Source: Sedimentisphaerales bacterium (GTDB lineage Bacteria > Planctomycetota > Phycisphaerae > Sedimentisphaerales > UBA12454). Taken from it: a DNA stretch of 38,303 nucleotides. Shown here piece by piece: positions 11,417-11,724 of the stretch. Numbering within the stretch: position 1 is the stretch's first letter; the number at the start of each line of letters is the position of its first letter. A program made the position numbers and the translations under genes. Where the stretch lies: the NCBI GenBank assembly GCA_016930635.1, contig JAFGGI010000044.1, forward strand, positions 1-38,303. Direction: 5' to 3'. Below the pieces are notes generated by a model. That model had not been told where the DNA came from. It was given only the letters and a program-made list of their open reading frames with translations, and did not search any database.

Positions 11417-11490
11417 GCGCCCGTAGCTCAATTGGATAGAGCGTCGGTCTACGGAACCGAAGGTTACAGGTTCGAATCCTGTCGGGCGTG
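11417..11490 (+). tRNA. tRNA-Arg (anticodon ACG)
   Basis: 74-nt cloverleaf. Acceptor GCGCCCG (11417-11423) pairs with CGGGCGT (11483-11489, G-U closing pair), discriminator G at 11490. The D-stem is GCTC/GAGC. The anticodon stem is TCGGT/ACCGA with loop CTACGGA, so the anticodon is ACG (wobble A presumably edited to inosine). The T-arm is ACAGG-TTCGAAT-CCTGT. CCA is not encoded. Confidence 0.96.
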
Positions 11491-11685
11491 CTAACAAATG
11501 ACAGGATTCGAACCTCAAAGGGTGCGGGAAAAGAATTTTCCCGCGATTTCGGGGTGACAGGGAGCAAAGCGACCGCCAGAGGGGCAAAGCCCCTATGGAA
11601 ATTTGCGAAAGCAAATTTAGGTTCTAGGTCGACCTGCCCATCGCAGCCTTGGCGAAGATGGGAGACCGGAATCCTGTCGGGCGTG
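11468..11685. repeat. Chain of perfect hairpins bounded by a duplicated tRNA-Arg 3' end
   Basis: The last 17 nt of tRNA-Arg (GAATCCTGTCGGGCGTG, 11474-11490) recur exactly at 11669-11685. The T-arm segment 11468-11483 also recurs as a perfect 16-bp inverted copy at 11500-11515. Between these lie perfect stems: GCGGGAAAA/TTTTCCCGC (11524-11544, 3-nt loop), AGGGGC-AAA-GCCCCT (11580-11594), AAATTTGC-GAAA-GCAAATTT (11599-11618), the palindrome AGGTCGACCT (11626-11635) and CCCATC/GATGGG (11637-11662) with an inner TCGC/GCGA. Its makeup differs from the neighbouring genes. It looks like a small mobile or integration-derived palindromic element sitting at the tRNA 3' end. The ORFs across it are artefacts. 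Confidence 0.85.
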
Positions 11686-11687
11686 TT

Positions 11688-11724
11688 AATAAAAAAGCCA
11701 GCTTATGATTAGTAAGCCGGCTTT
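11688..11724 (-). terminator. Rho-independent terminator of the acs-MFS operon
   Basis: AAAGCC-A-GCTTA (11694-11705) pairs with TAAGC-C-GGCTTT (11713-11724) around a 7-nt loop. On the minus strand the stem is followed by a run of T (complement of 11691-11696). It lies 20 nt past the stop of the OFA transporter. Confidence 0.8.

Follow-up and report, generated by a model that had tools for sequence, protein, structure and literature searches.

tRNA genes are favourite docking sites of bacterial islands, and sites of the attC and CTX type are acted on as folded single strands by a host Xer enzyme or an integron integrase. Among the tDNA islands collected by Islander, crossover classes at the T-stem and at the anticodon are known, and candidates that lacked an integrase or measured less than 2 kb were rejected (PMC4383910). 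Small palindromic elements have also been described: Rickettsia palindromic elements (RPE) are non-autonomous palindromic units of 100-150 bp, whose known sites include the genes for tmRNA and RNase P RNA and, in frame, protein genes (PMC2229807, PMC10969869), YPAL/RU-2 of Yersinia and Erwinia is a 168-bp hairpin element without TA ends that inserts at or next to dyad symmetry with target duplications of 3-26 bp (PMC2229807), and the REP/RAYT repeats, known from Planctomycetes among others, are palindromic, dispersed and mostly extragenic (PMC3733652).

The locus considered here lies in a window of 38,303 nucleotides, the whole stretch of DNA analysed, from contig JAFGGI010000044.1 of a Sedimentisphaerales bacterium. 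Its features, in window coordinates, are the following.

11417-11491, plus strand: tRNA-Arg(ACG), the intact target gene (ARAGORN; Rfam RF00005, 69.4 bits)
11474-11498, plus strand: near copy of the direct repeat, from the T-loop to the tRNA 3' end with 8 nt of trailer (repeat search)
11491-11499, plus strand: near spacer, at the position homologous to that in the tmRNA, Ser(TGA) and Arg(TCG) loci
11500-11515, plus strand: left end, a perfect 16-bp inverted copy of the T-arm (repeat search; its own tRNA is the best match)
11516-11618, plus strand: shared core with hairpins (dispersed repeat, alignment, compensatory changes)
11524-11544: hairpin GCGGGAAAA-GAA-TTTTCCCGC
11557-11575: variable hairpin within the core
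11581-11593: hairpin GGGGC-AAA-GCCCC
11599-11618: hairpin AAATTTGC-GAAA-GCAAATTT
11619-11624, plus strand: right end, the 5' half of a T-arm copy (AGGTTC), which pairs with the left end (alignment; closing-stem pairs counted)
11625-11668, plus strand: enlarged T-loop hairpin with a nested dispersed repeat (CCTTCGTAGCCTTGGCGAAGAAGG type) inside (own-genome BLAST, alignment)
11637-11662: hairpin CCCATC..GATGGG
11669-11693, plus strand: far copy of the direct repeat, the displaced tRNA 3' end with trailer (repeat search)
11694-11724, no strand assigned: terminator-like inverted repeat beyond the element, with its T-run on the minus strand, for a convergent transporter gene

A preliminary description had pointed to a 17-nt repeat of the tRNA tail, a 16-bp inverted T-arm and at least four hairpins, and repeat search and folding recover all of them. 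The exact 17-nt repeat, GAATCCTGTCGGGCGTG, occupies 11474-11490 and 11669-11685 within a longer direct repeat of 25 nt at 92% identity (11474-11498 and 11669-11693), and the partner of the inverted left end is the T-arm at 11468-11483, which pairs with 11500-11515 over 16 perfect base pairs. The insert, 11491-11668, measures 178 bp, opens with a 9-nt spacer ahead of the inverted T-arm copy and contains no open reading frame of 80 aa or more; it is read as a MITE-like palindromic element. By analogy with the tmRNA, Ser(TGA) and Arg(TCG) loci, the near spacer at 11491-11499 would be borne by the element. The element is 195 bp long here rather than the usual ~155 bp, the window's copy having another repeat nested inside it; at the position of the T-loop hairpin most other copies carry TAGGCCGAAGGCCGG only. 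This second dispersed hairpin (TCCATCGTAGCCTTGGCGAAGATGGA type; 11637-11662 in the window) was also observed at L262-L268, often inside GTCATTGCGAGGAGC..GCGACGAAGCAATCT repeats, and a nested form like the window's copy, with a different tail, stands at the start of contig C37 (L005).

The insert folds strongly, with z-scores of -5.2 as RNA and -5.4 as DNA and none of 200 shuffles equally stable. Compensatory changes are found in the first hairpin and in the closing stem that joins both ends, and over the whole structure changes on both sides of a pair occur in 29 cells against 10.2+-2.7 in shuffled data, with a covariation of 0.179 against 0.112. The families that Rfam recognises at or near copies of the element are limited to tRNA, tmRNA and group I intron, and at the window's element to tRNA alone.

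The same hairpin series lies behind many other tRNA and tmRNA genes, which bears out the suggestion of a tRNA-targeting palindromic element; the search beside other tRNAs that had been proposed for it succeeded in 22 of 161 genomes from the order, the source genome included. The source genome (G000) holds seven matches to a covariance model built from 14 copies and one copy cut by a contig end; its long BLAST matches lie behind tRNA-Arg(TCG), Arg(CCT), Ser(GGA) and Asp(GTC), with further matches near tRNA-Ala, where the tail is of the Asp type, and at a contig end. Across the 161 genomes the model gave 37 matches, 32 of them strong. No model match beyond families f1 and f7 was found in 397 sampled genomes of the class, and among 392 sampled genomes of the phylum the source genome was the sole carrier by the same model. 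An exact pattern scan of named genomes returned mostly Phycisphaerae/Planctomycetota MAGs, with further matches in unclassified bacteria, and collections of phages, plasmids and viral contigs contained no match to the element. Distribution within genera is patchy, and no description of the family was found in the open-access literature.

Site preference is evident in the 32 strong matches, whose targets were tallied by hand: each bears tRNA or tmRNA sequence at one end at least, and in 27 a whole tRNA or tmRNA gene stands immediately upstream on the same strand (five of tmRNA; Arg, Ser, Asn, Asp, Thr and Lys; one near Ala). Four others adjoin a 3' fragment (Asp, Lys and two tmRNA), and one has a Ser tail alone. 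The target in G018 is a tRNA-Asn gene split by a group I intron (L011, 1724-1998); a similar intron-like tRNA 3' half was seen at L104, upstream of a copy in G815. A further tmRNA copy is present in genome G814. Tandem second units, usually degenerate and distal, occur at L002, L046, L055, L113 and the tRNA-Thr of G080. As a separate observation, tmRNA genes free of the element are directly followed by another hairpin repeat (GTCTTCGYTC..GAGCGAAGAC..) at L152, L153, L161, L163, L167, L168 and L170-L173, as if the tmRNA 3' site were shared by different palindromic elements. The tDNA location is the rule in Phycisphaerae, not everywhere: the unclassified MAG G815 has at least 20 matches, with cores also at a 5S rRNA gene, between protein genes and in frame in trpG, so specificity for tDNA is not universal. 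Two elements stand at the 5S rRNA gene of G815:C37 (L128, around 340 and 690), and in one of them the 5' end of the 5S gene is directly repeated over ~37 bp; the related element in trpG of G815:C34 (L135, near 11784) leaves the reading frame open; and the copies between protein genes (L120, L131, L134) share a 13-bp hairpin, CAGTACAGTAAAGTA..TTTTACTGTACTG, at their start and have no tRNA arm.

The comparison of filled and empty sites, another check that had been proposed, gave a positive answer at tRNA-Arg(TCG), which precedes the same gene in G006 and G007 (71.6% identity over 408 nt). Between the tRNA and the aligned flank lie 13 nt in the empty site of G006 and 168 nt in the filled site of G007, so that one unit of ~155 bp was added in G007. 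The far trailer of G007 aligns to the empty site with a modest score of 35, against a mean of 18.4 and a maximum of 38 in shuffles; the near spacer shows no such alignment. Because the trailer and not the spacer aligns, the far side appears to be native and the near side to have been brought by the element, as judged at this one locus with ~72% flank identity and a modest trailer alignment. The far trailer of the window's copy corresponds to the one that is native at this homologous Arg(TCG) locus. Independent support for an element-borne near side comes from other spacers: that of the tmRNA copies, TT(T)GGTTNGCTYCCCTGGTG, is common to several genera, the trailers of element-free tmRNA genes being unrelated, and that of Ser(TGA) agrees in G078 and G072 and differs from four element-free sites. 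Elsewhere, G080 and G081 have no flank synteny at tRNA-Thr, and the Arg(ACG) site of G006 is element-free and only partly syntenic with the window.

The ends of the element follow the gene behind which it lies. In a permutation test (20,000 permutations) on 29 copies whose tRNA or tmRNA gene is complete, the inverted left end scored 653 against its own gene (permuted 506+-20) and the tail 969 (permuted 494+-35), and neither value was reached in any of the 20,000. For the left end, the inverted match beats the direct one in 26 of 29 copies and the opposite holds in none, so the end is truly inverted rather than a direct copy of a near-palindrome. Its agreement with its own tRNA goes further than the T-arm consensus, and in 19 of the 29 copies the T-stem positions at which left end and tail begin agree to within 2 nt. 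Three copies are exceptions: L007, at an Ala locus, has an Asp tail; L029, at an Asn locus, has an Arg tail; and L109 has none. The mismatch at L029 is likely a rearrangement, since in the sister genome G081 that far flank follows an Arg tail standing alone. The tree built from 31 cores over 113 columns has few firm branches; it requires 13 target changes, the minimum being 6 and the shuffled mean 19.2, and places the Ser copy among the Arg copies of G000. On this tree, targets are partly inherited and repeatedly switched.

Set against the described systems, the hairpin element is like tDNA islands in that it inserts at tRNA and tmRNA genes, restores the gene, displaces the 3' fragment to the far side and forms tandem arrays (PMC4383910). 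The tDNA is intact and the displaced fragment has the same orientation, and, from one locus and the spacer comparison, the native trailer lies far and the element-borne tail near. Unlike those islands, it is ~155 bp long and gene-free, with neither an integrase gene nor a length of 2 kb or more, has an extra inverted copy of the T-arm, and occurs with closely related cores at many different tRNA genes; its mode of action is like that of a miniature tDNA island. It resembles a MITE in being short, non-coding and dispersed with terminal inverted repeats, but the repeats are not fixed, the ends varying by copy and following the target, and no transposase-bearing parent was seen among the copies found. 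With RPE it shares small palindromic form and, in trpG of G815, an in-frame copy; it is set apart by the descriptions of RPE, which lie inside genes and for which no target-copied ends are described (PMC2229807, PMC10969869). YPAL/RU-2 is a hairpin element of similar appearance, set apart likewise by its description, which includes neither tDNA specificity nor a target-matched inverted end (PMC2229807). Unlike attC and CTX-type sites, the element shows by eye no dif-like or R'/R'' box and has the T-arm as its target; an integron attC was rejected as the R''/R' boxes do not fit by eye.

The comparisons establish that the element moves, prefers one site, displaces the native tail and carries ends matched to its target. 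With slightly better than even confidence, we regard this mobile non-coding unit of ~155 bp, located at the T-arm and 3' end of tRNA and tmRNA genes, as one that inserts there by site-specific recombination with the help of an enzyme supplied in trans. Insertion leaves the gene intact and places the displaced 3' tail with its native trailer at the far end; both ends are outward-facing T-arm copies, so that the element closes as one stem with three or four hairpins inside, and units can stack in tandem beside the gene. Recombination would take place at the near-palindromic T-arm, most likely through a tyrosine recombinase of an integrative element or an Xer-type enzyme, the gene-restoring tail would be carried by the element, as in genomic islands, and the folded single strand would belong to its life cycle. 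On a move to a new tRNA gene the ends would come to match that gene, probably because the target is copied or the ends are corrected against it. We infer that a tyrosine recombinase in trans fits site and topology best, and solely in this dependence on a recombinase in trans is the element possibly a satellite, another early suggestion. No recombinase linked to the element was found, and a linked integrase as mobiliser was rejected, the only tyrosine recombinases of the source genome scoring as XerC and XerD; where integrases lie close to other copies, they have the look of independent islands. A retroelement or group II intron was rejected as well, reverse transcriptase being absent from the source genome and most carriers (no RVT_1 match in 17 of 22, G000 included).

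Classical integration leaves the target match of the inverted left end unexplained, and it is here that a possible, though unlikely, alternative begins, namely insertion by target copying and no dedicated recombinase: after a staggered break at the T-arm, fold-back synthesis would produce the inverted T-arm copy, and synthesis would then switch template to the hairpin core and return, yielding a target duplication of 25-60 bp. The match of the ends would come from fresh copying of the target at every insertion or from later correction against it as quasi-palindromes. The common T-stem start of inverted end and tail in 19 of 29 copies and the match to the own tRNA beyond consensus speak for it, as do the 5S rRNA copy in G815, which obeys the same direct-plus-inverted end rule with a repeat of ~37 bp, and the direct repeats that in some copies extend past the gene end, as target duplication would; it also needs neither reverse transcriptase nor a linked integrase. 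Direct repeats are present, but their near part may be element-borne, as the spacer comparison and the one filled and empty locus suggest. Against it, the near spacers that several genera share and empty sites lack imply that the element takes along DNA from outside its core, and the strong preference for tDNA 3' ends is left unexplained. Fold-back copying or later quasi-palindrome correction would thus account for the matched ends, not for the conserved near spacer.

Recognition of single-strand hairpins by a Y1 (HUH) transposase in trans, in the manner of REP/RAYT or IS200/IS605, is improbable. The element is palindromic and dispersed like REP repeats, its hairpin chain has compensatory changes, the source genome encodes a short RAYT-like protein (NF047646, 41.7 bits, below the curated cut-off), and 19 of 25 genomes have a Y1_Tnp match; six carriers (G077, G078, G080, G081, G082 and G084) have no match to Y1_Tnp (PF01797, 1e-5), a search that diverged RAYT proteins could escape, so a Y1 transposase was not detected in every carrier genome. 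We know of no REP element with tDNA-specific insertion and a displaced tail. REP elements, moreover, are 20-40 bp long with GTAG or CGTC tags and no tRNA tail (PMC3733652).

The strong fold, conserved core and compensatory changes, on the strand of the tRNA, would also suit a non-mobile functional RNA domain that accompanies tRNA genes in processing or regulation. Co-transcription with tRNA-Arg(ACG) is plausible from the sequence, because a search of the interval between the gene and the element gave no terminator-like site; at the Asp, Asn and Lys loci, by eye, a terminator-like hairpin separates the two, and co-transcription is therefore not a general property. A functional RNA is quite improbable, given that occurrence is patchy within genera, that the tRNA species differ between genomes, that tandem units are present with the distal ones degenerate, that G815 has intergenic and in-frame copies, and that one copy in G072 is severed from its gene by a 59-kb integrase-bearing stretch. 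This stretch, G072:C56:13110-72948, is ~59 kb long, with several integrase genes between a tmRNA gene and a tmRNA tail with hairpin element. The deletion scar of an ordinary integrase island and the remnant of a second tRNA gene, both raised early on, are very improbable: a tRNA with a displaced 3' fragment is an island signature (PMC4383910) and G072 has its island-like stretch at a similar site, but the core is a dispersed repeat, independent deletions would not produce one hairpin core across dozens of unrelated sites, and the second copy consists of the T-arm and 3' acceptor strand alone, without the 5' half of a tRNA.

A bolder proposal, which we consider rather doubtful, is that the insertion reaction itself copies the target into both element ends, direct and inverted, and so tailors each copy to its site. 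If true, the tailored ends would amount to self-retargeting insertion at a tRNA, tmRNA or 5S rRNA gene or at a gene end, and we know of no description of such a mechanism for small bacterial elements. How elements change their target gene is, to our knowledge, not well understood, and the dozens of natural examples in this family, with related cores at different tRNA genes and matched ends, make target switching at tDNA testable. A tRNA gene plus a displaced fragment, finally, can mark an element far under the size cut-off of island finders.
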